Source of the DNA: Acetomicrobium hydrogeniformans
GTDB lineage: Bacteria > Synergistota > Synergistia > Synergistales > JAFGMB01
NCBI GenBank assembly: GCA_016841745.1
Contig: JAENYO010000007.1
Coordinates: 73,408-137,407, forward strand
DNA length: 64,000 nucleotides
Direction of reading: 5' to 3'
Each line of letters starts with the position of its first letter. Positions within the stretch are counted from its first letter, which is position 1. The notes beneath the pieces were generated by a model. That model was not told the DNA's origin, did no database searches, and saw nothing but the letters and a program-made list of their open reading frames with translations. A program made the translations under genes and the position numbers. Of this stretch, positions 44,234 to 63,726 are shown in pieces.

Positions 44234-45451
44234 CTAGAGGGCTTTGCAGGGCGATGAAGATTCTATCAATTCCTTCATCATACCAAGGCCTTCAAGAATG
44301 TTTTCTTTTGAGATCCCTGAATAGGCAAGTCTTATATATTTCTGGGTTTCTGAGGGAAAGGGAGTGCCAAAATGGTCCCTCGTGGTAAAAGAAACGCCTG
44401 TTTTGTCGAGGATGACCTTTCTGAATTCCTCTACCCCCTTGATGTCCAGTTTTTTCATTGCAGAGGTCACGTTCGGGAAAAGGTAAAAAGTGCTGTTTGG
44501 CCTGTGAACTCTTATTCCCTCCATTGAGTTCAGAAGATCCACCGCGACGTCTCTCCGTTCCCGGAGGATATCCATCATCTCCTGGTAGTTGTCACTTGGG
44601 GTCCTAATGGCTTCCACTGCTGCCCACTGTACAAAATGATTGGAACAGGATTCGTCGTTGATATTCAGCTTTGAAATTATGGATATGATCTCTTTGGGTC
44701 CTATTGCGGCACCGAGACGCCAGCCTGTCATGGCAAATCTCTTCGAAAAAGTGTAAAGAATAACAGTTCGATCGAACATCCCCGGAAGGCTCGCAATGCT
44801 TTTACCCTGTCCTTCATAAAGGATATCGAAATATGCCTCATCACTCAGAACGTAAAGATTATGCCTGATGCAAAATTCTGCCAGTCTTTGCATTTCAGCT
44901 GGATCTGATTCAGCGCTTGTCGGGTTATGATAGTTGTTATAAATAAAGATCTTTGTTTTAGGGGTTATCTGACTTTCGATACTGTCAAAATCCAGAGCAA
45001 ATCCAAGGTCATTCTCGATAAAACCATAGGGCTTTGCTACTCCACCGTGAAACCTGATCAAAGATTCATAGATGGGATATCCCGGATTAGGATAAAGAAC
45101 CTCATCTCCCGGGTTCATGAGAGACATGATGAATTTTCCTATTACAGGTTTTCCCCCGGTCTGTATACTTATGTTTTCCATGTCTAGCGTTAGGTCTCTT
45201 GCTGTACCTATATCCTCTGCCAGTGCTTCTCTGAGGGGAGCAATACCTTGAGTTGCGCAGTATCCTGTCTTGCCATCCTTCATAGCTTTAACAGCAGCTT
45301 CCACTACATATTCCGGAGTTGGAATATCGAGGTCTCCCAGATGGAAAGGATAAACTTTGAATCCCCTGTCGGTAAGTTTTTTTGCCTCCGCTCCGACTGC
45401 AAAAGCTGTCTCAGTTCCTAAAAGGCTGATCCTGTCAGCAAAGTTTACCAT
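44234..45451 (-). CDS. Class I/II aminotransferase
   Basis: A 405-residue fold-type I PLP enzyme: GKTGYCATQGIAPLREALAE, the NPGYPIY loop, YNNYHNPTSA, DEAYFDI, and the Schiff-base lysine in YTFSKRFAMTGWRLG. The family covers aspartate, aromatic and methionine aminotransferases; specificity is not clear. ATG 45451 follows GCAGGTGAATAAA; GTG 45460 is in frame but lacks an SD. It starts 5 bases after the transketolase C-terminal gene, so the three genes form an operon. This is an unusual partner for transketolase and may hint at an aromatic or sugar-derived amino acid pathway. Confidence 0.85.
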   Translation of the reverse strand: MVNFADRISLLGTETAFAVGAEAKKLTDRGFKVYPFHLGDLDIPTPEYVVEAAVKAMKDGKTGYCATQGIAPLREALAEDIGTARDLTLDMENISIQTGGKPVIGKFIMSLMNPGDEVLYPNPGYPIYESLIRFHGGVAKPYGFIENDLGFALDFDSIESQITPKTKIFIYNNYHNPTSAESDPAEMQRLAEFCIRHNLYVLSDEAYFDILYEGQGKSIASLPGMFDRTVILYTFSKRFAMTGWRLGAAIGPKEIISIISKLNINDESCSNHFVQWAAVEAIRTPSDNYQEMMDILRERRDVAVDLLNSMEGIRVHRPNSTFYLFPNVTSAMKKLDIKGVEEFRKVILDKTGVSFTTRDHFGTPFPSETQKYIRLAYSGISKENILEGLGMMKELIESSSPCKAL

Positions 45452-45456
45452 TTTAT

Positions 45457-46437
45457 TCACCTGCTTTTCATTTTCAGGACTTCTCTGACAGCCTGTATGA
45501 TATCCGTATCGAGAAGGTGAAATTTCCTCATCAGGTCATCGGGTTGTCCGGATTCTCCAAAACTGTCCTGTATACCAACCATTTTCATCGGTACCGGGCA
45601 GTTCTGGCATAAAACTTCGGCCACTGCACTTCCGAAACCGCCCATTACCTGGTGTTCTTCTGCTGTAACAACAGCACCTGTCAGAGCAGCAGCCCCGATA
45701 ATGGTTTGTATATCTATGGGTTTAACTGTGTGACAATTGATTACCTGTACAGATATTCCCTCATTGGCCAGTTTCTCCGCTGCTACAAGGGCCTGATAGA
45801 CCATCACGCCGCAAGCTATTACTGAGACATCACTGCCATCCCGGTAGATATCGGCTTTCCCGATCTCGAAGGGCGTTTCCGAAGTAGTTATTACAGGCAC
45901 TTTTTCTCTTCCAAAGCGTATCATCACAGGCCCGTCCATATTGGCTGCAGCGATGGTGGCTTTAAAAGTTTCATGATAGTCAGCGGGAACGATAACTGTC
46001 ATATTGGGTATCGTTCTTGTGATGGCTATATCCTCTAGAGCCTGGTGTGTTGCTCCGTCAGGACCGACGGATATGCCTCCATGTCCGGATCCGATCTTTA
46101 CGTTGAGCTTTGCATATGCCACTGTGGTTCGTAACTGATCCCATGCTCTCCCGGTGCAGAAAACTCCATAGGTGCTTACAAAGGGAATCTTGCCGACGAT
46201 GGAGAGACCCGATGCAACTCCCATCATATCCTGTTCAGCGATTCCGATCTGAATGAATCTCTCAGGAAAGGCTTTCTGGAATCTGTCTGCACAAAGGGAT
46301 GACGTAAGGTCTGCTCCAAGAACAACAACCTCAGAATTTTCATTGCCGAGAGCTACCAATCCATCACCGTAACCAAACCTGGTGGGTATCATTTCTACAT
46401 CACCCAGAATATTCTTTGAAAGTTTCAAGTCTTTCAT
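45457..46437 (-). CDS. Transketolase, C-terminal subunit
   Basis: A 326-residue protein covering the pyrimidine-binding and C-terminal domains: GADLTSSLCADRF, FIQIGIAEQDMMGVASG with the TPP-activating glutamate (about 68), GSGHGGISVGPDGATHQALEDIA, and EEHQVMGGFGSAVAE. With the N-terminal subunit it forms a split transketolase, moving two-carbon units between sugar phosphates. It starts at ATG 46437, immediately following the N-terminal subunit gene stop. DXS-like features are absent, so transketolase is preferred. Confidence 0.9.
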   Translation of the reverse strand: MKDLKLSKNILGDVEMIPTRFGYGDGLVALGNENSEVVVLGADLTSSLCADRFQKAFPERFIQIGIAEQDMMGVASGLSIVGKIPFVSTYGVFCTGRAWDQLRTTVAYAKLNVKIGSGHGGISVGPDGATHQALEDIAITRTIPNMTVIVPADYHETFKATIAAANMDGPVMIRFGREKVPVITTSETPFEIGKADIYRDGSDVSVIACGVMVYQALVAAEKLANEGISVQVINCHTVKPIDIQTIIGAAALTGAVVTAEEHQVMGGFGSAVAEVLCQNCPVPMKMVGIQDSFGESGQPDDLMRKFHLLDTDIIQAVREVLKMKSR

Positions 46438-47268
46438 CTACATCACCTCTGTGGAAAGTTCATTAAGGGCATGTTCCGCCTGTTCGGAACTGGGAGCTTT
46501 GCCATGCCAGCCGGCCTGGTCGGCCATGAAGGAGACCCCCTTGCCTTTTACCGTATGTGCAATTATCACAGTTGGTCTGAAGTGGGTATGGTTGAAACGG
46601 TTAAGACTTTTGACAATATCTTCGATATCATGACCGTCCACTTCCAGCACATTCCAGCCGAAAGCCTTCCATTTTTCAGCCAGGGGTTCGATATCTTTTA
46701 CTTCCGAAGTACATCCGTCTATCTGAAGGCCATTTCTATCAACAATACCGCAGAGATTGTCAAGCTTGTAATGTGAGGCAGTCATAGCAGCTTCCCATAT
46801 CTGGCCTTCATCCAGTTCACCATCTCCCATAAGGCAGTAAACTCTGTTGGTTTTACCGTCCATTTTGAGACCCAGTGCCATCCCTGCGGCTATTGAAAGT
46901 CCCTGTCCCAGGCTGCCGGTAGATGCCTCAAATCCGGGAAGTTTACATTTGTCAGGATGTCCCTGTAGTCTTGATCCTATCTTTCTGAGTGTCATCAGCT
47001 CCTCTTTGGGAAAATAGCCAGCTTCTGCCAGGGCTGCATAAATAACTGGACATGCGTGTCCTTTTGAGAGGATGAATCTGTCTCTTCCATCCCAGCAGGG
47101 GTTTGAAGGATCGTGTTTCATGACCTTGAAGTAAAGGGCAGTTACGATATCTGCTGCCGATAAAGACCCTCCGGGATGGCCTGATCGTGCTTCTGTTATC
47201 ATCCTTATTATGTCCTGGCGAATATTGTTTGCGATACTTTCGAGATCTTTTTCTTTGCCTCCCTGCAT
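46438..47268 (-). CDS. Transketolase, N-terminal subunit
   Basis: A 276-residue protein with the TPP pyrophosphate domain: SGHPGGSLSAADIVTALYF (about 31-49), LSKGHACPVIYAALAE, GSLGQGLSIAAGMALG, and the GDGELDEGQIWEAAM motif with DRNGLQIDG (metal and diphosphate binding). ATG 47268 lies behind GAGGAGGGCAACTCA. The 3' end abuts the C-terminal subunit. Split transketolases are common in thermophilic and anaerobic bacteria. Confidence 0.92.
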   Translation of the reverse strand: MQGGKEKDLESIANNIRQDIIRMITEARSGHPGGSLSAADIVTALYFKVMKHDPSNPCWDGRDRFILSKGHACPVIYAALAEAGYFPKEELMTLRKIGSRLQGHPDKCKLPGFEASTGSLGQGLSIAAGMALGLKMDGKTNRVYCLMGDGELDEGQIWEAAMTASHYKLDNLCGIVDRNGLQIDGCTSEVKDIEPLAEKWKAFGWNVLEVDGHDIEDIVKSLNRFNHTHFRPTVIIAHTVKGKGVSFMADQAGWHGKAPSSEQAEHALNELSTEVM

Positions 47269-48242: not shown

Positions 48243-49493
48243 TTGAAAGAGTTTGTTCGTGGTGCTTTTCTTTCGATATTTTTGAGTCTTTGCGTTGTAG
48301 GTTCTTCATTTGCGGCAGGTTTTGCCCTTTATGAATTCAGTTCCAGGGGAAACGCCCTCGGCGGAACCCTTGTGGGAAGGGCAGATGATCCATCTGCCCT
48401 GGCGTATAACCCTGCAGGTATCACCCAGCTTGAGGGCGATAATGTGATGTTCGGTCTTACCGCTATTATGCCTAGTCTGGATGTAGAGCTTAGTGATTTT
48501 GGACAGAGTTTTTCCAATGTGGATAAAATCTGGATCCCTCCTCATTTCTACTATACAAAACAGCTCAATGAGAAATACTGGTTCGGTATATCTGCTACAT
48601 CACGTTTTGGCCTGGGTTCCGAGTTCGATCCTGACTGGCCAGGGACATACAACAATTACTATGCCTGTATTCAGAGTTTCTCCCTTACCCCTACCCTTGC
48701 CGCCAAACTGTCCGATAAATTGTCAGTCGCAGTAGGTGTAGAGGCCATGTGGTTCGAGTTCGAGCAGAAAAAAAAGATCCCTGGAGCACCCTTTTCTCTC
48801 CCTTCGGATATCGATGCCCAACTTAAGGGAGATGATATAGGATGGGGTTGGAATTTTGCCATGCACTTTAAACCTGCTGATCGCATCAGGATGGGTTTCT
48901 TCTACAGGAGCGAGATTGAACAGAACATAGAGGGTGACGCAGATTTTACCGTTCCTGCAGATGCGCCGGCATATCTTTTCCCGGATACTACCGGGGCAGG
49001 GAAAGTGACTCTTCCCGAATCTTTCAGCGTCGGAATAGCTTTTCAGGCAACTGAAAAAACATCGGTGGAAGCTGATGCCATATACACAAGATGGAGTACC
49101 TACGATAAATTGACCATCAATTACGGTATGGATCTCTATGGTCCGGATTCAGACGTTAGTTCAACTCCCAAAAATTGGTATGATGTCTGGCGCTACCAGC
49201 TTGGAATAGAGCATGCCCTTACCGACCATTCCTGGCTCAGGTTCGGTTATGTATATGACGAAAGCCCTGTTCCTGATGAGACGGTAGACTATGTAGTCCC
49301 TGCCAATGGGAGGCAGATCTACAGCCTGGGTTATGGATTCACCAGGGGCAAGTGGGTATATGACCTTTCCTATGCCTATCTCGATATCAAGGAGAGAGGC
49401 ATAGAAGGCCGTCCAGGTGAAGGGGTTTTCAATTCTGATATTACGAATGCCGATACCCACATGTTGGGTATTTCAGTTAGTTACCGGTTCTAA
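48243..49493 (+). CDS. FadL/OmpP1-family outer-membrane transporter
   Basis: A 416-residue protein with a signal peptide (residues 1-24, cleavage near SSFAAG). The mature part starts GFALYEFSSRGNALGG and has the RADDPSALAYNPAGITQL block characteristic of the FadL hatch, then alternating beta-strand patterns, ending in ISVSYRF with the terminal Phe required for outer-membrane insertion. It would admit fatty acids or other hydrophobic compounds, and it shows the cell has an outer membrane. TTG 48243 follows GGGAGGTCTTATGAT. Confidence 0.9.
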   Translation: MKEFVRGAFLSIFLSLCVVGSSFAAGFALYEFSSRGNALGGTLVGRADDPSALAYNPAGITQLEGDNVMFGLTAIMPSLDVELSDFGQSFSNVDKIWIPPHFYYTKQLNEKYWFGISATSRFGLGSEFDPDWPGTYNNYYACIQSFSLTPTLAAKLSDKLSVAVGVEAMWFEFEQKKKIPGAPFSLPSDIDAQLKGDDIGWGWNFAMHFKPADRIRMGFFYRSEIEQNIEGDADFTVPADAPAYLFPDTTGAGKVTLPESFSVGIAFQATEKTSVEADAIYTRWSTYDKLTINYGMDLYGPDSDVSSTPKNWYDVWRYQLGIEHALTDHSWLRFGYVYDESPVPDETVDYVVPANGRQIYSLGYGFTRGKWVYDLSYAYLDIKERGIEGRPGEGVFNSDITNADTHMLGISVSYRF

Positions 49494-49500
49494 ATACTTA

Positions 49501-49528
49501 AGGAGCCCGCAGGTAAAAGCGGGCTCCT
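49501..49528. terminator. Bidirectional terminator after the FadL gene
   Basis: AGGAGCCCGC (49501-49510) pairs with GCGGGCTCCT (49519-49528) around AGGTAAAA, between the convergent FadL-type and DJ-1-type genes and 1 base from the latter's stop. Confidence 0.75.
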
Positions 49529-49529
49529 C

Positions 49530-50042
49530 TCATTTCCGGATCTCTTCCAGAAGGGCTTTTATGAAAAATGGCAGATCGGTTGGACGCCTGCTTGTCACTA
49601 TCCTGTCGCATACGACTACCTCTTCATCTACCCATTCAGCACCTGCAATTACCATATCGTCCCTGACACTCGAGCAGGAGGTTACCAGTTTGCCTCTGAT
49701 TATACCGGCAGAAACAAGCAGACTGCCTGCGTGGCATATCCCTGCGACAATGCCTCCCTTGTTATAGACATCTCTTACGAACTGCACTATCTCAGGGGAG
49801 ATTCTGAGTCTGTCAGGAGCCCATCCCCCAGGGATCACAACTCCTGAAATGTTATCCATTTCCAGAGTGGCAGGAGTGTAGTTGGCTTCTATCTGGGTTC
49901 CATATTTCCCGGTGTAGGCTCTTGGTGCCACGGGGGCTACTACTACCGGATCAAGGCCCTCTTCGATAAGGCGCAGGTAGGGGTACCAGAACTCCAGATC
50001 GTGAAAATCCTTTTCAACCAGAACCGCTATGTTTGTTGACAT
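49530..50042 (-). CDS. DJ-1/PfpI family protein
   Basis: A 170-residue class I glutamine amidotransferase-like protein. It has FHDLEFWYP with the conserved Glu17, VVIPGGWAPDRLR, and the nucleophile elbow AGICHAGSLLVSAG (C103 followed by His104). Members act as cysteine proteases, glyoxalase III/deglycases or chaperones; which applies here is not visible. ATG 50042 follows AAGGAGGTGGGATC. It is a single gene, divergent from the DUF364 gene. Confidence 0.88.
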   Translation of the reverse strand: MSTNIAVLVEKDFHDLEFWYPYLRLIEEGLDPVVVAPVAPRAYTGKYGTQIEANYTPATLEMDNISGVVIPGGWAPDRLRISPEIVQFVRDVYNKGGIVAGICHAGSLLVSAGIIRGKLVTSCSSVRDDMVIAGAEWVDEEVVVCDRIVTSRRPTDLPFFIKALLEEIRK

Positions 50043-50138
50043 GATCCCACCTCCTTCATTTTGTTATTTATCTAATATAATAGTGTTAGACTGAAAAGAA
50101 AAGACTTTTCTTTATATGAAGGGAGATTGAGATAGTAA

Positions 50139-50852
50139 ATGGAAGAAAGATTATTGGATTTAGCAGGGGAAAAAGCCTCGGGCAGGTCTTTAGTGAAATT
50201 TGTGAGAGGGATAAGATATTCTCTAGCCGTTCTTGATGACAATTCTGCCGGACTTGCCTTTTCCTTTCCGGAAAGGGTCAGCAAAAATGAAAAACTTTTT
50301 AGTTTACTCTCCGAGCTTCCCCTTCCATCGAATATATTTCTAGACCTTGCCCTTTCTCCCCATTTAGGAGATCGTGCCGCTGCCTTGGCAGTATCTAATG
50401 CTATCCTTGGTGTCCAGGGGAACGTATCAGGAACGATTCCTTCCCTTAAGGGCTTTACAAGTGTTTTCATGGTGGGCTTTATCGAACCCCTTTATATAAA
50501 GTTGGTGAGAGAAGGAATATCTTCGCTTGTAATGGATGATCATTATGATAAAAGTGTTCCCCTTGACATGGGATGCAGAATTGCCTCGAAGAGTGATCTC
50601 CTTATTCTCAGCGCAAGTTCAGTTGTCAATGGAACCTGGCAGCGTCTTGCTGATTCAGCACGTAGATGTTGGCTGGTTGGGCCTTCCGCTCCTCTTTCTG
50701 CTCCTGTCTATAAGGGTTCTTCCATTGAATATGTATTGGGGAGATCAATTGATAATGTCCAGGAGCTTCTCAAAATAGTCTCGAGGGGTGGAGGAACTCG
50801 GGACATGAGTAAATGTACGAGCAAGATCAGTCTTCACGTGAATAATCTTTAG
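50139..50852 (+). CDS. DUF364-type (Rossmann-like) protein
   Basis: 237 residues, ATG 50139 after GGGAGATTGAGATAGTAA. The N-terminal half has the DUF4213-like SLAVLDDNSAGLAFSF and DLALSPHLGDRAAALAVSNA stretches; the C-terminal half has VFMVGFIEPLYIKL, SASSVVNGTWQRLAD and WLVGPSAPLSAP, seen in DUF364 proteins linked to metal chelation or molybdenum use. I cannot assign a reaction. A link to the tungsten-type AOR at 56.9 kb is possible but unproven. Confidence 0.7.
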   Translation: MEERLLDLAGEKASGRSLVKFVRGIRYSLAVLDDNSAGLAFSFPERVSKNEKLFSLLSELPLPSNIFLDLALSPHLGDRAAALAVSNAILGVQGNVSGTIPSLKGFTSVFMVGFIEPLYIKLVREGISSLVMDDHYDKSVPLDMGCRIASKSDLLILSASSVVNGTWQRLADSARRCWLVGPSAPLSAPVYKGSSIEYVLGRSIDNVQELLKIVSRGGGTRDMSKCTSKISLHVNNL

Positions 50853-51213
50853 TGGTTTTACGATATGTAAAGAAGGGAAAGGATAGTTTCTATATTAATC
50901 ATAAGTTAATAAACATTTGACAAATTATTACTCGTGGGTTATTTTGAAGCTTAGGTTCTAAATATTTGTTTATTTTTCTCTAGGTCTGTATTCCTGCCAA
51001 AATATCGTAAGTCGTAATTTGTGTATATTCAGTTTATGAAAAGGGTATGTTTGCCCCACAGTATCAGTGGGGAGAGAATCTGTGTTTCCCTCAACTATAT
51101 AAACAAATATATTCCCATTTAAGTATCTTTTGGATATCAGATCTGCCCTTTCTTCATTTATCTGAAGCTGTTTTTTTATGTGGAAAATATTATAAATCAG
51201 GGATGGTGATTGG
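50853..51213 (+). promoter_or_regulatory. Leader region of the TPP decarboxylase operon
   Basis: 361 gene-free bases. A good promoter is TTGACA (50917-50922) with TATTTT (50940-50945) at 17 bases. About 110 bases downstream is a hairpin, CCCCAC-AGTATCA-GTGGGG (51055-51073). This gives a leader of roughly 260 bases, long enough for an attenuator or riboswitch, but I recognise no known class. Confidence 0.45.
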
Positions 51214-52830
51214 ATGAAATTAAAAACAGGAGGAGAACTGGTAATTCATGCTTTGGAAAAACTTGGTGTTGAGCATCTATTCGGGATTCCTGGTATTCAT
51301 AATCTCGATATCTATGAATACCTTATGGGAAGTTCCATAACAGATATAGGAGCGAGGCATGAACAGGGTGCCGGATTTATGGCTGACGGATATGCAAGAA
51401 TATCCGGCAAACCCGGGGTGGCTCTTGTAATTACAGGTCCTGGATTAACTAACATTATAACCCCCATGGGACAGGCTTATCATGATTCAATCCCCATGCT
51501 TGTCATATCAAGCCAGATAGAAACATCAGCATTACATTATCGATCAGGTTATCTTCATGAATTAAGGAATTCCACTCAGCTTGTGTCATCTGTTTCTAAG
51601 GAAAGTCGTCGAATAGAGAGTCATTCTGCCATCGAGAGGGCTATCTTTGAAGCCTATCACCTATCCCTTTCCGGAAGGCCAGGTCCTGTGCACGTGGAGA
51701 TTCCCCTGGATATACTTACTACAAAACAGCCTGTATGCAATGAGAATGTTCTTTTTTGCTCTGATAAGCTGCTTTTCAGCAGCGACCTTACCAGATCTGC
51801 CATGAACAAGATCTCAGGTTCAGCTGATCCTGTAATATTGGTTGGAGGGGGAGCCGTTAAATGCGGTAAAGAAGTTACCCTTCTGGCTGAAATGATTTCA
51901 GCACCTGTACTTTCTACCTGTGCCGGTAAAGGCATTGTCAGTGAAGACCATCCGCTGTCTCTTGGAACCCGGATCCATTTCCCCGCTGTTCAGAATTACC
52001 TTGAAAATAGTGACCTGGTGATAGCTCTGGGCACGGAATTCTCTCCTACGGATTTCTGGAAAAGGTCCATTGATCTTGGAAAGGAACTTATATGTGTAAA
52101 TATAGATCCCGGATCTTTTTACAACCAGCGTACCTGTAACATAGGTATAGAGGGTGACGTAAAAAGTGTTGTCCAAATGTTTCTGGACAACGATCTTAAT
52201 CGTAATGCCGATCGCCAGAGAAAGACGGAAGAAGTTCACAATCTCAAGGAGATCTGCTCTGCATCCCTGGGCGAAGTTACCGGTATGGGTGAGGAACTCC
52301 CCGCAATGATCTTTTTAATGAATATCATAAGGAAATGCCTGCCTGAAGATGGCACTCTCTGGGCTGATATGACTTCTCCTGCCTATGTAGGGATCAGTGA
52401 GTTTGTTTCTCTCAGGGCCAGATCTTTTCTTCACCCGGTGGGGTTCGGTACCCTTGGGGTAGCACTCCCTGCAGCTATAGGGAGTAAAATAGCTTCCCCT
52501 GACAAAGAAATATGTGTCCTTGCTGGAGATGGCGGGTTTCAGTTTACCCTTCCTGAACTCGCAGTGGCATCAGAACTAAGGTTAACCATTCCAATTATTA
52601 TTTGGAATGACTGTGGCTACGGTGAGATAAGACGAAATCAGACTGTTCGTCATCCGGGTAAGACCATTGCTGTTGACCACAAGGGTCTTGACTATGCAGC
52701 CCTTGCAAAGGTCTATGGAATAAAGGGGAGAATAGTTACTTGCCTTGAAGAGCTTTCTAGTGTCCTGACAGAGGCCTTTAAAGAAAAGGGACCTACCCTT
52801 ATTGAGATAAAAGTGAAGGAGTGTTTCTGA
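51214..52830 (+). CDS. TPP-dependent decarboxylase of the acetolactate-synthase superfamily
   Basis: 538 residues: N-terminal pyrimidine domain with catalytic glutamate in IGARHEQGAGFMADG (about 48-62) and GPGLTN, a central Rossmann-like domain, and the C-terminal TPP motif GDGGFQFTLPELA continuing to NDCGYGEI. It looks like the 5-guanidino-2-oxopentanoate decarboxylase/benzoylformate decarboxylase side of the family rather than a biosynthetic synthase: no small regulatory subunit gene is present. With the next gene, an aminotransferase, it would turn an amino acid's 2-oxo acid into an aldehyde. Confidence 0.83.
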   Translation: MKLKTGGELVIHALEKLGVEHLFGIPGIHNLDIYEYLMGSSITDIGARHEQGAGFMADGYARISGKPGVALVITGPGLTNIITPMGQAYHDSIPMLVISSQIETSALHYRSGYLHELRNSTQLVSSVSKESRRIESHSAIERAIFEAYHLSLSGRPGPVHVEIPLDILTTKQPVCNENVLFCSDKLLFSSDLTRSAMNKISGSADPVILVGGGAVKCGKEVTLLAEMISAPVLSTCAGKGIVSEDHPLSLGTRIHFPAVQNYLENSDLVIALGTEFSPTDFWKRSIDLGKELICVNIDPGSFYNQRTCNIGIEGDVKSVVQMFLDNDLNRNADRQRKTEEVHNLKEICSASLGEVTGMGEELPAMIFLMNIIRKCLPEDGTLWADMTSPAYVGISEFVSLRARSFLHPVGFGTLGVALPAAIGSKIASPDKEICVLAGDGGFQFTLPELAVASELRLTIPIIIWNDCGYGEIRRNQTVRHPGKTIAVDHKGLDYAALAKVYGIKGRIVTCLEELSSVLTEAFKEKGPTLIEIKVKECF

Positions 52831-52833
52831 AAT

Positions 52834-53949
52834 ATGTCTCTGGACGGAATCAGAAAAGCAGTTCTTAATGTGAAGCCCTATGTTCCCGGTAAGACTACAG
52901 AAGAAGTGATATGCGAAAAAGGTCTCAGCCATGTTATTAAACTTGGTTCGAATGAGAATCCCTATGGTCCATTTCCTGCTGCCCTGGAATCCATGAAAAA
53001 GGAACTTGTAAAACTTAATACCTATCCCGATGTTTCTTTCAGGGAGATAAAGGTTGTCATCTCAGATATCTATGGCCTGAAAGCTAAAAATGTCTGTATA
53101 TCACATGGAGCTGAAGGAATGCTCCAGACCCTGGGTAAAGTTTTTATCGAATCGGGTGATGAAGTTTTAATACCTTCTGCTACTTATCCTCTTTACACAG
53201 AGATATCCAGCCTTATGGGAGCAGATATTTTAACAGTTCCAATGAAAGATGATTTCTATCTTGATATGGATTCCATCAGAAAAGCAGTTTCTCCAAGGAC
53301 CAAACTTATCTGGCTGAATAACCCGAATAATCCAACCGGGACCATGTTCAGGAAAGAAAATCTGGATAAACTTCTCGAAGAAATTCCGTCAACCTGCTGG
53401 GTTGTTCTGGATGAAGCCTATGCTGAATTTGCGGACCAGGAGAAACTGCCCGACATCTCGGCGTATATAGAAAAGGGAAAGAACATTGTATCGATCAGAA
53501 CTTTTTCCAAGGCCTATGCACTTGCTGGAGCAAGGATCGGATATGCCCTATGCCGAGAGGAAATTGCAGTCATCATAGATACCGTATCTGAGCCTTTTAA
53601 TGCTAACCGGGTTGGTATAGCAGGAGCACTGGCTACATTGCAGAAGGATATGAAACAATGTGCAGAGGCTATTTCGAAGATCAGGGATGAGAGAACAAAA
53701 CTCTTCAGATCATTTACGGAAGTGGGTCTCGATCCCGTGCAATCTCAATCCAACTTTATTTTCGTAACAACCCCCTTTGACGCTCAAGTTGTTTCAGAGA
53801 GACTGCTTGATCGCGGGATAATAATTCGCCCATGTTCCGGCTGGGGTTACTCAAGATCTATTCGAGTGACAGTTGGTACCCCCGATGAAAATTCACTTTT
53901 TCTTCAAGAGCTTGCTTTTGTTCTGGATTCATTGAGGAAGGATGATTAA
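52834..53949 (+). CDS. Histidinol-phosphate aminotransferase-like PLP enzyme
   Basis: 371 residues: KLGSNENPYGPFPAAL (about 33-48), SHGAEGM, IWLNNPNNPTGTMF, LDEAYAEFAD, and the Schiff-base lysine in RTFSKAYALAGARIGYA. This is HisC-type fold. No other his genes are nearby; the decarboxylase gene ends 3 bases before it and a transporter follows 2 bases after it, so a catabolic broad-specificity transaminase is more likely than histidine biosynthesis. Confidence 0.85.
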   Translation: MSLDGIRKAVLNVKPYVPGKTTEEVICEKGLSHVIKLGSNENPYGPFPAALESMKKELVKLNTYPDVSFREIKVVISDIYGLKAKNVCISHGAEGMLQTLGKVFIESGDEVLIPSATYPLYTEISSLMGADILTVPMKDDFYLDMDSIRKAVSPRTKLIWLNNPNNPTGTMFRKENLDKLLEEIPSTCWVVLDEAYAEFADQEKLPDISAYIEKGKNIVSIRTFSKAYALAGARIGYALCREEIAVIIDTVSEPFNANRVGIAGALATLQKDMKQCAEAISKIRDERTKLFRSFTEVGLDPVQSQSNFIFVTTPFDAQVVSERLLDRGIIIRPCSGWGYSRSIRVTVGTPDENSLFLQELAFVLDSLRKDD

Positions 53950-53951
53950 CC

Positions 53952-55139
53952 TTGACACAGATAGTCTCACCTGAAAATGAATCAGACCTGGATAAAGGTA
54001 TGGTCATTTTTCAGGACGTAAGAAAAGTCTATGATGATTCAATCGTAGCAGTAGAAAACCTGAACCTTATTATCAACAAGGGTGAACTGGTAAGCCTGAT
54101 AGGACCAAGCGGATGTGGTAAAACGACTACTCTCAAAATTGTTAACAGGCTTGAGGAATGTACTTCTGGAAAGATCCTTATCGGAGGAATGGATATTATG
54201 TCCCTCGATCCAGTACGTTTGAGAAGGGGCATTGGCTACGTAGTTCAGGAAATTGCACTGATGCCTCATATGTCCGTAGCAGAGAATATTGGAATAGTCC
54301 CCAGGTTACATAACTGGCCCCGTAAAAAGATCATGAAAAGAGTGGATGAACTTCTTGAGATGTCTGGTCTGGAGCCTGCAAAGTATCGTTACAGACTGCC
54401 TGATCAACTGAGCGGAGGGCAGAAGCAGAGAATCGGCGTACTCAGAGCCCTTGCTGCGGAGCCGGAAGTTATCCTTATGGATGAGCCCTTTGGAGCTCTG
54501 GATCCAATCAGCAGGGAGGTACTCCAGAACGAACTTCTTTCAATCCAGCAAAAACTTCACAAGACCATCATTTTCGTTACCCATGATATGGATGAGGCGC
54601 TGAAGATCTCCGACCGTGTTGTTATAATGAGATCAGGAAAGATCGAACAGATGGGTTCTCCTGCAGAGATCCAGGAAAACCCTGCCACTGAGTTTGTACG
54701 TAATTTCATTGGAGAAGACAGGCTGTCCCAGATATCTCCGGAAGATTCTGTTTCAGTCCTGGTAGAGGATCCATGGGGAAAAGCCTACCCGGATCAATCT
54801 GCATCTGATGTGTTGTCAATGATGGAAGATGAGGATATGGAATCTATCCAGGTGGTAGAGAAACGGGCCAACCGATGGGCAGGAATGGCCTATTTAAGGG
54901 ATGTCAAAAGAATATCCAGGACTGGCGGTTCCGTAAGGGATGCTGCCAGGAGAGACCGTAAACTATATCTGGAAGAGGCTACCATGAGGGATGCCGCCGA
55001 AATGCTTGCAGACAAAGCCTATCCAATCCCGGTCATTGACGAACAGGGAGAGTTCCTTGGTGTTATTACCGAAGCCGGAATAGCCAGGCTGACCATTGGA
55101 AGACTGAAACGACGCGTGACAGGAGGTGCTTCCCAATGA
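53952..55139 (+). CDS. opuCA: Osmoprotectant/quaternary-amine ABC transporter ATPase with CBS domains
   Basis: 395 residues: Walker A GPSGCGKTTT (about 49-58), Q-loop VQEIALMPHM, signature LSGGQKQRIGVLRAL, Walker B VILMDEPFGALD, and the switch His in VTHDMDEAL. After about residue 270 come two CBS-like repeats (SVSVLVEDP..., YPIPVIDEQGEFLGVITE). CBS domains in this family sense ionic strength. TTG 53952 follows GAGGAAGGATGATTAACC. The neighbouring decarboxylase and aminotransferase suggest that the cargo here may be a catabolic amino acid or amine rather than only an osmolyte. Confidence 0.88.
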   Translation: MTQIVSPENESDLDKGMVIFQDVRKVYDDSIVAVENLNLIINKGELVSLIGPSGCGKTTTLKIVNRLEECTSGKILIGGMDIMSLDPVRLRRGIGYVVQEIALMPHMSVAENIGIVPRLHNWPRKKIMKRVDELLEMSGLEPAKYRYRLPDQLSGGQKQRIGVLRALAAEPEVILMDEPFGALDPISREVLQNELLSIQQKLHKTIIFVTHDMDEALKISDRVVIMRSGKIEQMGSPAEIQENPATEFVRNFIGEDRLSQISPEDSVSVLVEDPWGKAYPDQSASDVLSMMEDEDMESIQVVEKRANRWAGMAYLRDVKRISRTGGSVRDAARRDRKLYLEEATMRDAAEMLADKAYPIPVIDEQGEFLGVITEAGIARLTIGRLKRRVTGGASQ

Positions 55140-55840
55140 TCCAGCAGAGTAGCCTTCTGGTGCTATTTATTAAATACGTAGCAAGATATTATCCAAGGAT
55201 ATTGAGATTGACATTCCAGCATTTGACCATTTCGGCCATAGCCCTGGCTCTGACCCTTGTTGTCTGTGTTCCCCTGGGGATATATATCACCAGAAAAGAG
55301 AAACTTGCACCTTATGTTATTGGCCTGGCTAACGTTTTTCAGACAATTCCAAGCCTTGCCCTTCTGGGGTTCCTGATATTGATCTTCGGAATTGGTAATG
55401 ATAATGCCATATGTGCCCTTTTCATGTATGCCATGCTACCGGTACTTCAGAATACTTATACTGGCATCAGGAGTGTTCCCAGTCACCTGGTTCAGGCTGC
55501 GAAGGGGATGGGAATGACCGATTTTCAGATCCTCCTCAAAGTACAGCTTCCCATAGCTCGTCCTGTTCTCCTTGCAGGGGTAAGGGTTGCTACAGTATGG
55601 ATAATTGGAACGGCCACACTCGCATCAGCTATAGGAGGAGGTGGACTGGGTAAACTGATCTTTTCAGGCCTTGCATCCATAAGGTACGAAATAATACTGG
55701 CAGGGGCTATCCCGGCCACCATAATAGCTTTGCTTGCGGACCAGTGCCTGAAATTCCTTCAGGATTATTACAGTCCCCGAAACAGAGCTAAAAGAATGGC
55801 GAAAAAAGCGGAGAAACTGGGTGTTGATCTGTCAGAATAA
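55136..55840 (+). CDS. opuCB: Osmoprotectant-type ABC transporter permease
   Basis: 234 residues with about five or six membrane helices; the permease signature region YTGIRSVPSHLVQAAKGMGM and the MTDFQILLKVQLPIARP EAA-like loop are clear. It overlaps the ATPase gene by 4 bases (ATGA). Only one permease gene is present, so it likely works as a homodimer. Confidence 0.9.
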   Translation: MIQQSSLLVLFIKYVARYYPRILRLTFQHLTISAIALALTLVVCVPLGIYITRKEKLAPYVIGLANVFQTIPSLALLGFLILIFGIGNDNAICALFMYAMLPVLQNTYTGIRSVPSHLVQAAKGMGMTDFQILLKVQLPIARPVLLAGVRVATVWIIGTATLASAIGGGGLGKLIFSGLASIRYEIILAGAIPATIIALLADQCLKFLQDYYSPRNRAKRMAKKAEKLGVDLSE

Positions 55841-55857
55841 GAAAGGGGAAGATATAC

Positions 55858-56787
55858 ATGTTAAACATAAAGTATACAAAGATAGTATCATTGGTAGTAA
55901 TTGCTCTCTGTGCAATTACGCTTTTTGCAGGTTTTGCAGTAGCTGCAGAGGATAATCCCATGAATTATAAGGGAAAACTGAAGGTGGGGGCCCAGACAGT
56001 TAATGAACCCATAACTCTGGCGTGGATGGCCAAGTTGCTTCTGGACGAATATACCGGTCTGAAAACGGAAACCAGTACGGAGTTCGCTGCTTCTTCAGTA
56101 CTTCATCAGGCAATGGTTGGAAAAGAACTTGATATATACGTTACCTGGACTGGTACTCAGTTAACAGGAATCCTTCGTTATGAAGGTCCTAATTTATCCA
56201 AAGAAGAAACTTTCAGAAGAGTCAAGGAAGGTTTTGAAGAGAACTTCAAATTTACCTGGATCGATCCCTTTGGATTTAATAACACATATGTGATGGCAGT
56301 TAGAAGAGAGACCGCTGAAAAATTTGGACTTAAAAAGGCTTCTGACCTCAAGGCCCATGCAAAGGACTGGAAAATCGGAGGGGATGAGAACTTCGATACT
56401 CGCCCCGATGCTTACCCAGGCTGGTCCGAGGCCTATGGCATCGAATTCAAGGAGGTTCTTCCCATGCAGTATTCAATGATGTATATGGCTATAGACAAGA
56501 AAGAAGTTGATGTTATAGCTGCCTACAGCACTGATTCCAGGATCAAGAAGCTTGATCTGGTAATGCTTGAAGATGACCTTGAATATTTCCCCGCCTACAG
56601 TGCAGCTTATGTTGTAAGAATGGAAGTCCTTGATAAATATCCTCAAGTTAAGGAGATCTTGAGCATGCTCAGCGGTAAGATCGATGAGGAAACCATGTCC
56701 TCACTTAATTACAGGTTTGATGAGGGCGAAGATCCCGAGGATATAGCCAGGGGATATCTCCTCTCGGAGGGGTTAATTAAAAAATAA
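55858..56787 (+). CDS. opuCC: Osmoprotectant-type ABC transporter substrate-binding protein
   Basis: 309 residues with a signal peptide (hydrophobic residues 8-27, cleavage near AVAAED); no lipobox Cys. The fold shows KLKVGAQTVNEPITLAWMAKLL, ELDIYVTWTGTQLTGIL, and the C-terminal VIAAYSTDSRIKKLDLVML; Trp/Tyr residues could form the aromatic cage that holds a cationic ligand. The start ATG 55858 follows AAAGGGGAAGATATAC. It closes the transporter set before a strong terminator. Confidence 0.88.
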   Translation: MLNIKYTKIVSLVVIALCAITLFAGFAVAAEDNPMNYKGKLKVGAQTVNEPITLAWMAKLLLDEYTGLKTETSTEFAASSVLHQAMVGKELDIYVTWTGTQLTGILRYEGPNLSKEETFRRVKEGFEENFKFTWIDPFGFNNTYVMAVRRETAEKFGLKKASDLKAHAKDWKIGGDENFDTRPDAYPGWSEAYGIEFKEVLPMQYSMMYMAIDKKEVDVIAAYSTDSRIKKLDLVMLEDDLEYFPAYSAAYVVRMEVLDKYPQVKEILSMLSGKIDEETMSSLNYRFDEGEDPEDIARGYLLSEGLIKK

Positions 56788-56796
56788 GTTAATCTG

Positions 56797-56823
56797 ACAA
56801 GGGGGGGCCAGGCCCCCCCTTGT
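56797..56823 (+). terminator. GC-rich terminator after the ABC transporter
   Basis: ACAAGGGGGGGCC (56797-56809) pairs with GGCCCCCCCTTGT (56811-56823), directly followed by TTATAAT. The real loop must open the inner CC/GG pairs. It separates the transporter genes from the aldehyde:ferredoxin oxidoreductase gene. Confidence 0.8.
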
Positions 56824-56874
56824 TTATAATATTACCTATAATTATGATATCTGAGAATACAGGAGTAGACTGAA

Positions 56875-58743
56875 ATGAAAGCGAAATTGTTTGGATACGC
56901 AGGAAGCCTCTTGAGAATTGACCTTACTGAAAGAATTTACTCCGTCGAAGATGTTGAAGAGAACCTGCTCAGGCAATATCTTGGTGGAGTAGGTATTGGT
57001 GCCAGATTCCTTTATGATGAGATCCCTTCAGGAACAGATCCACTCTCTTCAGGTAATAAAATCTTTATAGCTACTGGGCCTCTTACTCTGCCACAGGTTC
57101 CGGGGGGTGGCAGCATTGAAATATGTTTCAAATCGCCCCTTACGGGAGCCTGGGGTGAAGCCCGGCTGGGTTCGAATTATGGTTTTGCCATGAAGAAGTC
57201 AGGATATGACTATATCCTTATAGAGGGAGTATCCTCCTCACCTGTATACCTTGTTATCGATAATGGGGCAGTTTCATTTCGTGACGGGACTTCTCTACAG
57301 GGTCTGGTTGTGCTTGAAAAGGAGTCAAGGATCAGAGAAGAACTGAAAGAAACTGGTTTTGAGATCATCACCATCGGCCCGGCAGGGGAAAAACTTGTCT
57401 CCTTCGCTACCGTGATGAATGGCCACAGGGCTGCCGGGAGATGCGGTGGTGGAGCTGTTATGGGAAGCAAAAACCTTCTTGCGGTAGCTGTAAGGGGAAC
57501 TGAATCAGTCCCCTTGTTTGATAGAGAAGCATTCATGGAAAATATCCGGAAGGCTCATGGGATAGTGCAAAGTAATCCCTCAACGCCATTCTTTACCTCC
57601 CAGGGAACCATGGGAGGATTGGAACACAGTGACAGGTCCGGTGATTTCCCTACGAGGAACTGGGCATCAAATTCCTGGGGTAATGGTGTGGATATTTCGA
57701 AACATTTTTTTGCACGGAATCAGATAAAGGAGCAGGGATGTTACACTGGCTGCCCTGCGAGATGCGGACGCAGGGTTCATGTTCCTGACGGACCCTTCAG
57801 TACTCCTGAGCATGATGGCGGAGAGTATGAGTCAATAGCAGCGTTTACAGCATTCATAATGAACAGTGATGTTGATGCGGCTGTTCATTCTTCCTACTTA
57901 TGCAATGAATATGGCCTTGATACCATATCTACTGGTGCTGTTATAGGATTTTTCATGGAGTGCCATGAAAAGGGTCTTTTGAAGAATATTCCTGAAGAAG
58001 AGTCTGACTTGAACTGGGGCGAAAAGGAAATTCTTCCTGTTATGATCAGGAAAATCGCTCTCAGGGAGGGCATTGGAGATCTTATGGCTAAGGGAGTCAG
58101 GGCTGCTTCGGATGTGATAGGAGATGTTTCCCGTTCCTTTGCGATTCACTGTAAAGGCCTGGAGGGTCCTGCCCATGATCCCAGATCTGGTAAATGTCTT
58201 GCCCTCGCCTATGGAACAGGTAATAGGGGAATGTGTCACATCCACCCGGTTGAGGCAAAAGCCTATGACAGTGAAAAGATCGATTTTGGTCTTCAGTCCA
58301 TGGGACTTCCGGATCCCCTTCTTGTGGACAGATGGGAGGAGAAAGGCAAAGGTTCGATTGTCAAGATCCTGCAGGATGGATGCGTAATACCAGATGTGAT
58401 TGGAACATGCAAGTTCTATATGTATATGGGAATAGACCTCGATATATATGCTGACCTGATTTCATCAGTTACGGGTTGGGAGATTTCAGGCAGGGACCTG
58501 CTTATTACAGGCGAAAGAGTGAATAATCTGCAGAGGCTTTTTAATATAAGGGAAGGTTTTACTCGTAAAGACGATTATCTGCCCTCAAGAGTGCTCCAGA
58601 GGCCGTTCTTCGGGAAATATAGCGAAGAAGATGATTGTGCCATTAAGGATTATGAATCAATGCTTGATGAATATTACATTGCCCGGGGGTGGGATGAAAA
58701 CGGTATCCCTGAAGCGTCGACAATAAAGAAACTGGGGCTCTGA
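56875..58743 (+). CDS. Aldehyde:ferredoxin oxidoreductase (tungstopterin type)
   Basis: 622 residues. AOR N-terminal domain: LRIDLTERIYSVEDV, QYLGGVGIGARFLYDE, ATGPLTLPQVPGGG. The 4Fe-4S ligands are GCYTGCPARCGRRV (about 284-297) plus a distal Cys in IGTCKFYMYMGID. The family uses a bis-pterin tungsten cofactor to oxidise aldehydes to acids, reducing ferredoxin. Placed after a 2-oxo acid decarboxylase and an aminotransferase, it would drain amino-acid-derived aldehydes and yield low-potential electrons. ATG 56875 follows AGGAGTAGACTGAA. Confidence 0.92.
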   Translation: MKAKLFGYAGSLLRIDLTERIYSVEDVEENLLRQYLGGVGIGARFLYDEIPSGTDPLSSGNKIFIATGPLTLPQVPGGGSIEICFKSPLTGAWGEARLGSNYGFAMKKSGYDYILIEGVSSSPVYLVIDNGAVSFRDGTSLQGLVVLEKESRIREELKETGFEIITIGPAGEKLVSFATVMNGHRAAGRCGGGAVMGSKNLLAVAVRGTESVPLFDREAFMENIRKAHGIVQSNPSTPFFTSQGTMGGLEHSDRSGDFPTRNWASNSWGNGVDISKHFFARNQIKEQGCYTGCPARCGRRVHVPDGPFSTPEHDGGEYESIAAFTAFIMNSDVDAAVHSSYLCNEYGLDTISTGAVIGFFMECHEKGLLKNIPEEESDLNWGEKEILPVMIRKIALREGIGDLMAKGVRAASDVIGDVSRSFAIHCKGLEGPAHDPRSGKCLALAYGTGNRGMCHIHPVEAKAYDSEKIDFGLQSMGLPDPLLVDRWEEKGKGSIVKILQDGCVIPDVIGTCKFYMYMGIDLDIYADLISSVTGWEISGRDLLITGERVNNLQRLFNIREGFTRKDDYLPSRVLQRPFFGKYSEEDDCAIKDYESMLDEYYIARGWDENGIPEASTIKKLGL

Positions 58744-58865
58744 GAGATATAGATGAATTTCAGGATCTTTCCTCGAAGGTTTTTACGATTAAAGATCAGG
58801 ATTGCCAGATAAGTGAGAAAATCTCTCGCCGTCATGGTAAAATATATCGGTTCAAAGAAAATTGG

Positions 58866-58891
58866 AGCGGCAGAATCTCTGCCGCTTTTTT
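58866..58891 (+). terminator. Intrinsic terminator after AOR
   Basis: AGCGGCAGA (58866-58874), loop ATC, TCTGCCGCT (58878-58886) and a run of six Ts. Classic intrinsic terminator, 30 bases before the gyrA start. Confidence 0.88.
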
Positions 58892-58920
58892 GAGTAATGT
58901 TTCTTGGAGGTCGGAAATAA

Positions 58921-61374
58921 ATGGAAGAACAAAAGGGAGAGTTTCTCTTTGGCAAAGTAGTACCCCTTCCTCTTCTGGAAGAGATTAAGCACAGCTACCT
59001 TGATTATGCCATGAGCGTAATAGTAGGACGGGCTCTTCCCGATGCCCGTGATGGTCTGAAGCCTGTTCAGCGACGGATCCTTTACGCCATGCTGGGTCTG
59101 GGGCTTAAACATAATACGGCCTATAAAAAATCGGCCAGGGTTGTGGGAGAAACAATGGGTAAATATCATCCCCATGGTGATTCTGCAATATATGAAACCA
59201 TGGTAAGGATGGCCCAGAATTTTAGCATGCGCTACCGACTTGTTGATGGACAGGGAAACTACGGTTCTATTGACGGAGATTCAGCAGCTGCAATGCGTTA
59301 CACTGAAGCCAAGCTCTTTGATATAGGAGAGTATATGCTTGCCGATATAGATGAAGACACAGTAGACTGGGGACCCAACTTCGATGAATCCCTTACTGAA
59401 CCTCAGTATCTACCGTCCATGATACCGAATCTCCTTGTTAACGGGAGTTCCGGCATAGCAGTAGGTATGGCTACCAATATACCTCCACATAACCTCTGTG
59501 AAGTTATGGATGCCCTATGTTATATCATTGATACAGAGACTGAGAATATCGAATTTGGCGAACTCCTTTCCCGCCTTCCTGGTCCTGATTTCCCGACAGG
59601 CGGACTTATCCTGGGAAGGGAAGGCATTATCGATGCATACAGAACCGGTCGTGGTAAGGTCATTATGCGTGGCCGGACCCATGTTGAAGAAAGCAATAGG
59701 GGAAGGGACCGGATCGTAATTACAGAGATCCCTTACATGGTCAACAAGACTCTTCTTATAGACAACATCGTCAAGGGTGTTCAGAATAAGAACATCGATG
59801 GTATTTCAGACATAAGAGATGAATCTGATAGAGATGGGTTACGAGTAGTTCTTGAATTGACAAGGGAGGCTGATCCGAACCTTGTCATGAGACAGCTCTA
59901 TTCCAGAACACAGCTGCAATCCACCTTTGGTGTGATAAACCTTGCCCTTGTGGATAACCAGCCCAAGGAGCTGCCCATACAGGATATGCTGACTATTTTC
60001 CTTGATCACCGAAGATCGGTGGTTCGGAGAAGGACGACCTTCCGTCTGAAAAAGGCACAGGCCAGGGCTCATATCGTTGAGGGTCTTGTAAAGGCCCTTG
60101 ACATAATTGAAGAAGTGATCTCTATAATCAGAGGTTCCAGAACTGCTGGCGAAGCCAAATCAGGCCTGATGCAGAAACTGGGATTTACAGGTATACAGTC
60201 ACAGGCTATCCTCGATATGAGACTTCAGAGGCTTACAGGACTGGAAAGATCGAGACTGGAAGACGAACTTGCCCAGCTTCTTTCTGATATCGAAAAATAT
60301 CAGACAATTCTAGGGAATCCAAAAGTGCTTGATTCTGTCATCCGCGAAGAACTCCTTGATGTGAAGAAAAGATTTGGGGATGACAGGAGAACCGAAATAA
60401 TTAATGCAGCAGCAGAGGTCTCTTTGGAAGAACTTATACCAGAAAGCGAGATTGTAGTGCTTCTCTCCAATGATGGGTATCTTCGAAGGAAACCCCTTGA
60501 GGACTATGCCGTCCAATGTCGTGGCGGGAAGGGTCGTAAGGGTGCTTCCCTGAAGGGCGAAGATGAAATATCTCTGATGGCAGTCACAAATACCCATAAG
60601 GATATTTATCTTTTTACATCCAAGGGAAGGGTGCTGGCGATTAAGGGATATGTTATCCCGGAGACCAGAAGCGGGAAGGGGAAGCCCATAACTCGCTTTA
60701 TTTCCCTTGAAAGCGAAGAGACTGTGGTAGCCATAAAGGGTTCGGCTATAGAGGGAAAGAAATTTGTCTTTTTCCTTACCCGAAAGGGTGTGGCCAAACG
60801 TCTTCCCATATCCGAGCTCCAGAACCTTACACGTGCAGGCAGGAGAGTCCTTTCCCTTGATGAGGGTGATGACATAGCCATGGTCCATGCTACTACGGGT
60901 GAAGATCATCTTCTCTTCATAACATCAAAGGGACAGGCCTTGAGGGTTTCGGAAATTGAATTTCGTCCTATGGGTAGAAATGCCCGCGGAGTAAGGGGAA
61001 TGAGACTTGCAGAAGATGACCTGATAATAAGTTTTGATGTGGTCAACGAAGATATGTATTCCCTTATCATAAGCGAAAAAGGTGTAGGTAAAAGGACCTG
61101 TTACAGTGAGTTCACCCCGCATCACCGGGGTGGGAGCGGGGTGAAGGCAATGAACCTTGGTCCGAAGACTGGACGCCTTGTATCCAGTTCTGGTGTAGTC
61201 GATTCGGATGAGATCGTTGTTATTTCCGCCAAGGGGCGTCTGATAAGGGTTGCATCCAGGCAGATACCTATCCTGAGCAGGACTGCTATGGGTTCTATAG
61301 TGGTAAGACTCAATGAAGGAGACAGCGTGGCAGGTACCAGTATTGTGTCGGCTACTGTCTGCGAAGGGCAATAA
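58921..61374 (+). CDS. gyrA: DNA gyrase subunit A
   Basis: 817 residues. The winged-helix and tower domains contain [21 protein letters not shown] (split as RALPDARDG and [12 protein letters not shown]), the [21 protein letters not shown] with Ser88 and Glu92 (quinolone-sensitive-type residues), and catalytic Tyr127 in AMRYTEA. The C-terminal pinwheel begins near residue 500, and a GyrA box [10 protein letters not shown] at about 531 confirms gyrase rather than topoisomerase IV ParC. No gyrB lies next to it. ATG 58921 follows TTGGAGGTCGGAAATAA. It is followed by psd and pssA, so it may share a transcript with phospholipid genes. Confidence 0.97.
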
Positions 61375-62900: not shown

Positions 62901-63398
62901 TCAGATCTTATGGAGCCTGGGCCAGATAAGGTAGGTCAGGATAAAGGCAATTATAAGGTTAGGAAGCATATAACTGCCATTGTATATGGTGGAGTAAAGC
63001 CATACGTTAGTTCCCTCCGGAGCATAGCTTCCGAAAAAGACCACCCCGGAAAGGACGTGACACCCGAATCTCAGGAAAGAACCGATGCTCAGTCCAACCC
63101 AAATGGGGCGACGGACTGAACCAGCCAACCCAAGGGCTCCAAAGGCCAGGGGGTAATCAAGCAGAGCCTGGAGTGGATGCACGACATAGCCTCCCAGCAT
63201 AAGCTGGACAAGACCTGCTACAACACCAGCTCCCATCCCGGCTTTCATGCCCCATCTCAGGGAGAAAATGAGAAGGGGTATATTCTCGAGGGTAATAGAG
63301 CCACCCTGGGGCATCCTCCATAATTTGAGATATGAGAGGGCAATGGCAAGGGCTGCTGCTAGTCCTCCTTCAACTAACATACGGGTTTTTGTGTTCAT
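62901..63398 (-). CDS. thiT: ECF-type thiamine transporter S component
   Basis: 165 residues with about six hydrophobic helices; the start TKTRMLVEGGLAAALAIALSY, LWRMPQGGSITLENIPLL and the Trp/Tyr-rich end YSTIYNGSYMLPNLIIAF match ThiT, the thiamine-binding S component that pairs with a shared ECF energising module. ATG 63398 follows AAGGAGGAAATCCC; the longer frame upstream runs through the riboswitch and is not translated. Control by the TPP riboswitch supports thiamine as substrate. Confidence 0.9.
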   Translation of the reverse strand: MNTKTRMLVEGGLAAALAIALSYLKLWRMPQGGSITLENIPLLIFSLRWGMKAGMGAGVVAGLVQLMLGGYVVHPLQALLDYPLAFGALGLAGSVRRPIWVGLSIGSFLRFGCHVLSGVVFFGSYAPEGTNVWLYSTIYNGSYMLPNLIIAFILTYLIWPRLHKI

Positions 63399-63469
63399 GG
63401 GATTTCCTCCTTCAAGTATGTTCATGTTGCCGGAGGAAGGAAGGGTTTTTGTGAGAACAAGAGCAACCG

Positions 63470-63563
63470 ACTTCCCTTCGCCGGCATTACCCGGATCAGG
63501 TTCAAGGGGTCGAGGCAAGAAGCCTCCTCTCAGCCGATTCTTATCGACTCCCCCAGGTGCACC
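63470..63563 (-). ncRNA. TPP riboswitch (THI box)
   Basis: Read on the minus strand: GGTGCACCTGGGGGAGTC, a short variable hairpin, the conserved GGCTGAGAGG, a P3 stem (AGGCTTCTTGCCT), then ACCTGATCCGGGTAATGCC and GGCGAAGGGAAGTC. These are the defining pyrimidine- and pyrophosphate-sensing blocks. It ends about 70 bases before the thiT start, so TPP binding would shut off thiT. The TPP enzymes in this window (E1, transketolase, decarboxylase) depend on this cofactor. Confidence 0.96.
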
Positions 63564-63726
63564 AGATATTTTTACTCTGATTGTCTTTTTTGTCAACTAT
63601 AAGTGTAACCAGAACCAACTTCCAGGGTCCGAACAATCTTTGGAATTTGTCGTTCTTGTGTTACCCGGTTAACGGAAAACCTTTGAAAGATCAGTCCATA
63701 ATCAGATTACACGGGGAGTTGTTTTC

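Follow-up and report, generated by a model that had tools for sequence, protein, structure and literature searches.

A conserved six-gene cluster in Synergistota, a probable anaerobic Ehrlich-type oxidation unit for a cation-bearing amino acid

In the Ehrlich pathway of yeast, an amino acid is transaminated, the 2-oxo acid is decarboxylated, and the aldehyde is either oxidised or reduced. The AruH/AruI arginine transaminase pathway of Pseudomonas likewise combines an aminotransferase with a thiamine diphosphate (ThDP)-dependent decarboxylase of the PRK07524 family, which converts a cationic 2-oxo acid to an aldehyde. Anaerobic amino acid fermenters usually oxidise 2-oxo acids to acyl-coenzyme A (acyl-CoA). 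Here we describe six genes (positions 51214-58743, all on the + strand) in a 64,000-nucleotide stretch (the window) of the 3.04 Mb genome of Acetomicrobium hydrogeniformans, which encode a ThDP enzyme, a HisC-like aminotransferase, the ATPase, permease and receptor of an OpuC-type transporter, and an aldehyde:ferredoxin oxidoreductase (AOR). The six genes are a conserved unit common to several families of anaerobic Synergistota, and their grouping is not due to chance. On balance, the cluster is probably an anaerobic Ehrlich-type oxidation unit for a cation-bearing amino acid.

The predicted order of chemistry is the same as in the yeast pathway; the cluster differs in being bacterial and anaerobic, and in carrying a ferredoxin-linked AOR among its genes. 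Compared with AruH/AruI, it has a HisC-like aminotransferase, an AOR oxidation step and an OpuC-type porter. Its AOR shares family, Fe-S cysteines and Glu/His positions with the Pyrococcus-type enzyme (1aor), from which it differs by a one-residue insertion between Fe-S cysteines 1 and 2 and by its fixed operon with a decarboxylase. The porter shares fold and aromatic cage with the OpuC/ProX/EgtU quaternary-ammonium ATP-binding cassette porters, but its first cage residue is Trp, a key Glu is replaced by Asn178, and its setting is a catabolic operon. The parts are of known kinds, and the cluster, with its AOR and OpuC porter as a fixed complement, is a variant of the Ehrlich/AruHI transaminase-decarboxylase type; searches of open-licence papers listed none recognised as describing such a set.

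In the proposed mechanism, the OpuC-type porter would import an amino acid with a cationic side-chain end, the HisC-like aminotransferase would convert it to the 2-oxo acid, decarboxylation of this by the ThDP enzyme would yield an aldehyde, and oxidation by the dedicated AOR would then give the acid one carbon shorter, together with reduced ferredoxin. Ferredoxin as electron acceptor, and a W or Mo cofactor, are presumed by analogy with the family. A free-acid route of this kind might spare the CoA step for side chains that cyclise or give a poor acyl-CoA. Open reading frames (ORFs) and family matches agree with the initial annotation in placing the decarboxylase, aminotransferase, transporter and AOR on one strand, and the conserved gene set supports the sequence of reactions that it had suggested.

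Conservation was assessed by a protein search with the decarboxylase across 185 Synergistota genomes. Matches with an E value of 1e-60 or better were found in 56 genomes, and orthologues were counted in 23, including the host itself (43-61% identity, three in two pieces), the other matches being 28-35% identical. The window and the stretches around 20 of the 22 other orthologues made up a set of 21 loci. The nearest named relative, Thermovirga contig L005, has the same gene order as the window. OpuC porter genes adjoin the decarboxylase gene in 17/21 loci, the aminotransferase gene does so in 16/21, and a cluster-type AOR gene lies within 1 kb on the same strand in 11/21. The AOR gene is located 3′ of the receptor gene in the window, L108, L113, L122, L123 and L124, and 5′ of the decarboxylase gene in L109, L112, L115, L116 and L118. 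Among the exceptions, L108 has porter and AOR without the aminotransferase, L118 has the AOR only, and L119-L121 have the decarboxylase alone, with no AOR. The short contigs L110 and L114 break off at the porter genes or within them, and in L111 the adjoining AOR is on the opposite strand and of another clade, a cluster-type AOR (51%) being found approximately 10 kb upstream. In most relatives, the genes for the decarboxylase, aminotransferase, ATPase and permease overlap, mostly at their start and stop codons, or almost abut. The genes flanking the cluster vary between families, so the unit is taken to be the six genes; 20 flanking proteins from relatives, scanned against Pfam, included no recurring additional partner hinting at the substrate. 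In a scan outside the phylum, none of the best 80 loci exceeded 40% identity, and no full aminotransferase/OpuC/AOR neighbour set was present among the matches listed.

The same association was seen across whole genomes. A cluster-type AOR (E value 1e-150 or better) is encoded in 15 of the 185 genomes, 14 of which also have the decarboxylase (Fisher p = 3e-14). Receptor matches at 1e-90 or better occur in 19 genomes, and the decarboxylase is present in 18 of these (Fisher p = 1e-19). Both p values ignore shared ancestry. In G028 and G175, which have the AOR or the receptor without the decarboxylase, the contig ends close to the gene.

The AOR (56875-58743, + strand, 622 aa) carries AFOR_N and AFOR_C domains, with four Fe-S cysteines (C289, C293, C297, C512) together with E317 and H455, sites mapped with the Pyrococcus AOR residue numbers. 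In a tree of 15 AORs, the 11 cluster AORs formed one group (support 100/100), apart from three paralogues of the same genome and the L111 neighbour. All 11 have C-x3-C between Fe-S cysteines 1 and 2 (residues 289-297, 57739-57765), where the Pyrococcus enzyme has C-x2-C; the L113 AOR is longer by one more residue ahead of the third cysteine. Chance adjacency of the AOR was rejected on synteny, its own clade and co-occurrence across genomes, and the same evidence bears out the earlier proposal that it is a true partner.

The gap between the receptor and AOR genes is 87 bases in the window and contains a GC-rich hairpin (approximately 56797-56824, + strand) that is strong (z -2.8 relative to shuffled sequences, 0/200 equally stable) with a poor T tract, and could be a weak terminator, an attenuator or an mRNA-stabilising stem. 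The initial annotation placed the AOR beyond a terminator and gave it its own transcript. The hairpin is real, but hairpins of similar composition recur at the same site in L113/L122 (z -1.2) and L108 (z -2.4), which are two other families, and the gap in L124 is only 11 bp, so the AOR is assigned to the unit. Read-through into the AOR gene seems at least as likely as a separate transcript, and the hairpin could just as well act as a stabiliser or a partial attenuator 3′ of the receptor gene. An Rfam riboswitch search found nothing near gathering score in 49000-59500, and in seven related loci no match close to the cluster exceeded gathering; a promoter scan gave 17 hits versus 16.9 expected.

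The decarboxylase (51214-52830, + strand, 538 aa) has the TPP_enzyme N, M and C domains, catalytic Glu50 and an LHE motif at residues 114-116, the Glu116 position of which is Gln in the genome's own acetolactate synthase. It is AruI-like, with PRK07524 ('5-guanidino-2-oxopentanoate decarboxylase') as its best NCBIfam model; its score of 499.7 bits places it at the boundary of that model (cut-off 500). Other cluster copies score above the cut-off (L105, 506.2; L111, 531.5) or below it (L116, 439.3; L122, 461.3), compared with 775-873 for three Pseudomonas proteins. Glu471 is present in 17/17 cluster decarboxylases and could hold a guanidinium. It takes the place of a Met in the own acetolactate synthase that lies near the substrate, by the roles of Met582, Trp586 and Lys251 in acetolactate synthase. 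In the four Pseudomonas copies compared (L015, L025, L026 and L034, which we take to be of AruI type), the positions of Glu471 and Lys129 are occupied by Gln and Ala, respectively; other homologues vary at position 471, some having Glu. In a 38-sequence tree, the cluster copies and three orphans (L119-L121, from G016, G015 and G013, without porter, aminotransferase or AOR alongside) formed one group (93/100) that is separate from AruI; within it, the orphans branch as sisters of the f5 copies (99/99). Residues 471, 474, 255 and 488 are Ile, Asn, Asn and Asn in 3/3 orphans versus Glu, Arg, His and Asp in 17/17 cluster copies, and the orphans have likely changed substrate, as judged by these replacements. 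L118, which retains the AOR without an adjoining porter or aminotransferase, still has Glu471. The orphan in L120 adjoins isochorismatase-family and TusA/DsrE-type genes.

The receptor (55858-56787, + strand, 309 aa, OpuAC domain) has as its closest solved chains the OpuC/OpuB, ProX and EgtU receptors and sensors built from such proteins, and is approximately 30-37% identical to glycine betaine, carnitine and choline receptors. A structure model agrees with the relatives in fold, with low confidence at residues 181-187. Alignment to OpuBC/OpuCC chains, with their cage numbering, showed that the complete quaternary-ammonium cage and its Asn base (W97, Y144, Y223, Y247 and N142) are conserved in 17/17 cluster receptors. 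According to PMC9732360, the EgtUC pocket comprises F293, Y341, Y419, Y443 and N339, with K242, T296 and R379 at the ligand carboxylate and E375 as a critical residue. By comparison with that pocket, Thr100 (16/17) corresponds to T296 and Arg182 (16/17) to R379, Gln46 (16/17) replaces K242, and the Glu expected of an EgtU/ProX-type receptor at the E375 position is Asn178 (17/17), a correspondence mapped through sensor alignments and this text rather than the EgtUC sequence itself. Because the cage is kept while Asn178 stands in for E375, the receptor should, as far as its residues indicate, bind a methylated-onium ligand, or possibly a guanidinium, though hardly in the manner of ergothioneine or of ProX betaine binding. 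In L108 the cluster has two receptor genes in tandem, 65 and 60% identical to that of the window, and L113 likewise has two (70 and 65%), which suggests more than one ligand.

The remaining porter genes are those of an OpuCA/ProV-type ATPase with a C-terminal CBS domain (54000-55139, + strand; proV TIGR01186, 367.3 bits versus a cut-off of 326.6) and an OpuCB-type permease (55136-55840, + strand, 234 aa, BPD_transp_1). The ATPase ORF opens at 53952 (395 aa), but alignments of relatives begin only at residue 17 of that ORF, which makes the ATG at 54000 the more likely start. The aminotransferase (52834-53949, + strand, 371 aa) has the pyridoxal phosphate lysine (Lys226) and the substrate arginine (Arg344), and scores 311.5 bits on hisC TIGR01141 (cut-off 276.55), which demonstrates the family and not the substrate. 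The genome has 23 hisC-family matches, of which only this one exceeds the cut-off, and no better HisC was found. No linkage to other his genes was seen: hisD (histidinol dehydrogenase) is on contig 13 and the aminotransferase gene on contig 10. Because the hisD contig has no hisC match, an additional part in histidine synthesis is possible.

Several observations weigh against a dedicated unit for a cationic amino acid. L105, L106 and L107 have no AOR close to the cluster, and in L117 the AOR is reduced to a 58-residue C-terminal stub 3′ of the receptor gene (query residues 565-622; L117 13104-13277), a possible recent loss. In G179 the AOR is approximately 10 kb from the cluster, G020 has the decarboxylase, porter and AOR without an aminotransferase match at 1e-70, and G029 retains the decarboxylase and AOR only. 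The shared ancestry left out of the co-occurrence statistics belongs here as well. Exit from the cluster and loss of Glu471 in the three orphans are, as read from the tree, one evolutionary event. Thr100 and Arg182, the equivalents of carboxylate-binding residues in betaine receptors, are retained and would suit an ordinary betaine. The cationic substrate put forward in the initial annotation is thus a possibility to which the receptor cage and Glu471 point, and nothing beyond that.

As to the substrate itself, a quaternary or sulfonium 'onium' amino acid, with N6-trimethyllysine foremost, is possible though short of probable, and the same holds for something else altogether, such as histidine or an aromatic or branched-chain amino acid; arginine or another guanidino acid is only slightly less likely. 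The cluster might, tentatively, oxidise N6-trimethyllysine to delta-valerobetaine, or S-methylmethionine to dimethylsulfoniopropionate (DMSP), with reduction of ferredoxin. The chemistry requires a free alpha-amino group, which trimethyllysine has together with a quaternary nitrogen, and its 2-oxo acid cannot cyclise, unlike those of lysine and ornithine. The complete trimethylammonium cage and the replacement of the Glu that is ligand-critical in EgtU/ProX favour such a ligand. Support consists of the receptor family and residue patterns, and the Thr/Arg carboxylate pair of betaine receptors lies near the cage, whereas the trimethyllysine carboxylate is far from the quaternary nitrogen. S-methylmethionine can be converted to DMSP via transamination, and is the third choice of substrate. 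According to PMC9135737, 4-dimethylsulfonio-2-oxobutyrate is listed among the intermediates of DMSP synthesis. The known bacterial enzymes from trimethyllysine to delta-valerobetaine are, according to PMC11773067, the monooxygenase DavB and the amidase DavA; the cluster may share substrate and product with the DavB/DavA route, and would use a transaminase, a decarboxylase and an AOR instead. Import of trimethyllysine through a quaternary-ammonium receptor and its oxygen-free conversion to delta-valerobetaine, with two electrons passed to ferredoxin, is a speculative and rather unlikely specific case.

Arginine had been named as a candidate in the initial annotation. It would be converted to 5-guanidino-2-oxopentanoate and 4-guanidinobutanal, and by the AOR to 4-guanidinobutanoate, from which a ureohydrolase encoded elsewhere could give gamma-aminobutyrate and urea. 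This route is as tentative as that from an onium amino acid. PRK07524 is the best model of the decarboxylase, L105 and L111 exceed its cut-off, Glu471 might hold the guanidinium, and three PF00491 genes in the genome are all above the TIGR01230 agmatinase cut-off; however, the window, L116 and L122 copies fall well short of the Pseudomonas range, the four Pseudomonas enzymes compared have Gln and Ala at positions 471 and 129, and the receptor is of quaternary-ammonium type. The three ureohydrolase genes are all on contigs other than that of the cluster, none turned up among the 20 scanned flanking proteins of relatives, and an arginine deiminase-like gene (447.7 bits, below the cut-off of 489.1) offers an alternative use of arginine. 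Trimethyllysine is, on the residues compared, at least as good a candidate. Elsewhere in the genome (L141, own contig C2:5000-24000), two agmatinase-family genes flank what are presumably TRAP transporter genes beside a presumed glutamate formiminotransferase-like gene.

It is unlikely that the porter is an ordinary compatible-solute importer sharing the operon by chance, with the enzymes oxidising common aromatic, histidine or branched-chain amino acids. The identity of the receptor to betaine-type receptors, the retained Thr100 and Arg182, and the hisC score of the aminotransferase are compatible with it, but the porter stays beside the decarboxylase in most loci, and five further OpuAC-family receptors, different in type, are encoded in the genome, one of them adjoined by an ATPase and a permease, so betaine uptake is probably independent of the cluster porter. 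The existence of these separate betaine-type receptors and of a separate acetolactate synthase weakens the two plainest alternatives, plain betaine uptake as the sole purpose of the porter being the first. The second, that the genes are biosynthetic (acetolactate synthase and histidinol-phosphate aminotransferase), is highly improbable: the hisC evidence given above would fit, but the ThDP enzyme reaches only 320 bits on acolac_lg, far under the cut-off of 538.35, the true acetolactate synthase (728.2 bits) is encoded elsewhere beside what reads as a ketol-acid reductoisomerase (KARI)-like gene, and an importer and AOR would make no sense in biosynthesis. A biosynthetic acetolactate synthase was accordingly rejected as the identity of the decarboxylase.

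A DUF4213/DUF364 gene (50139-50852) lies upstream of the cluster; of the 20 other loci, the f1 relative L105 alone shares it. At 44234-47268 (- strand), a split transketolase pair precedes another class I/II aminotransferase. A thiamine pyrophosphate (TPP) riboswitch aptamer (63456-63564, - strand; 76.3 bits, gathering 54.3) is found ahead of a ThiT-type thiamine transporter gene (62901-63596), and L105 likewise has a TPP riboswitch (1972-2079).

A unit that passes through a free aldehyde to its own AOR would explain the use of amino acids with an awkward acyl-CoA or 2-oxo acid, such as arginine and trimethyllysine, and would assign a substrate and a function to one clade within the AOR family. 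If the substrate were trimethyllysine, the cluster would be an oxygen-free source of delta-valerobetaine, a host-active metabolite, and an alternative to the monooxygenase route ascribed to intestinal microbes.

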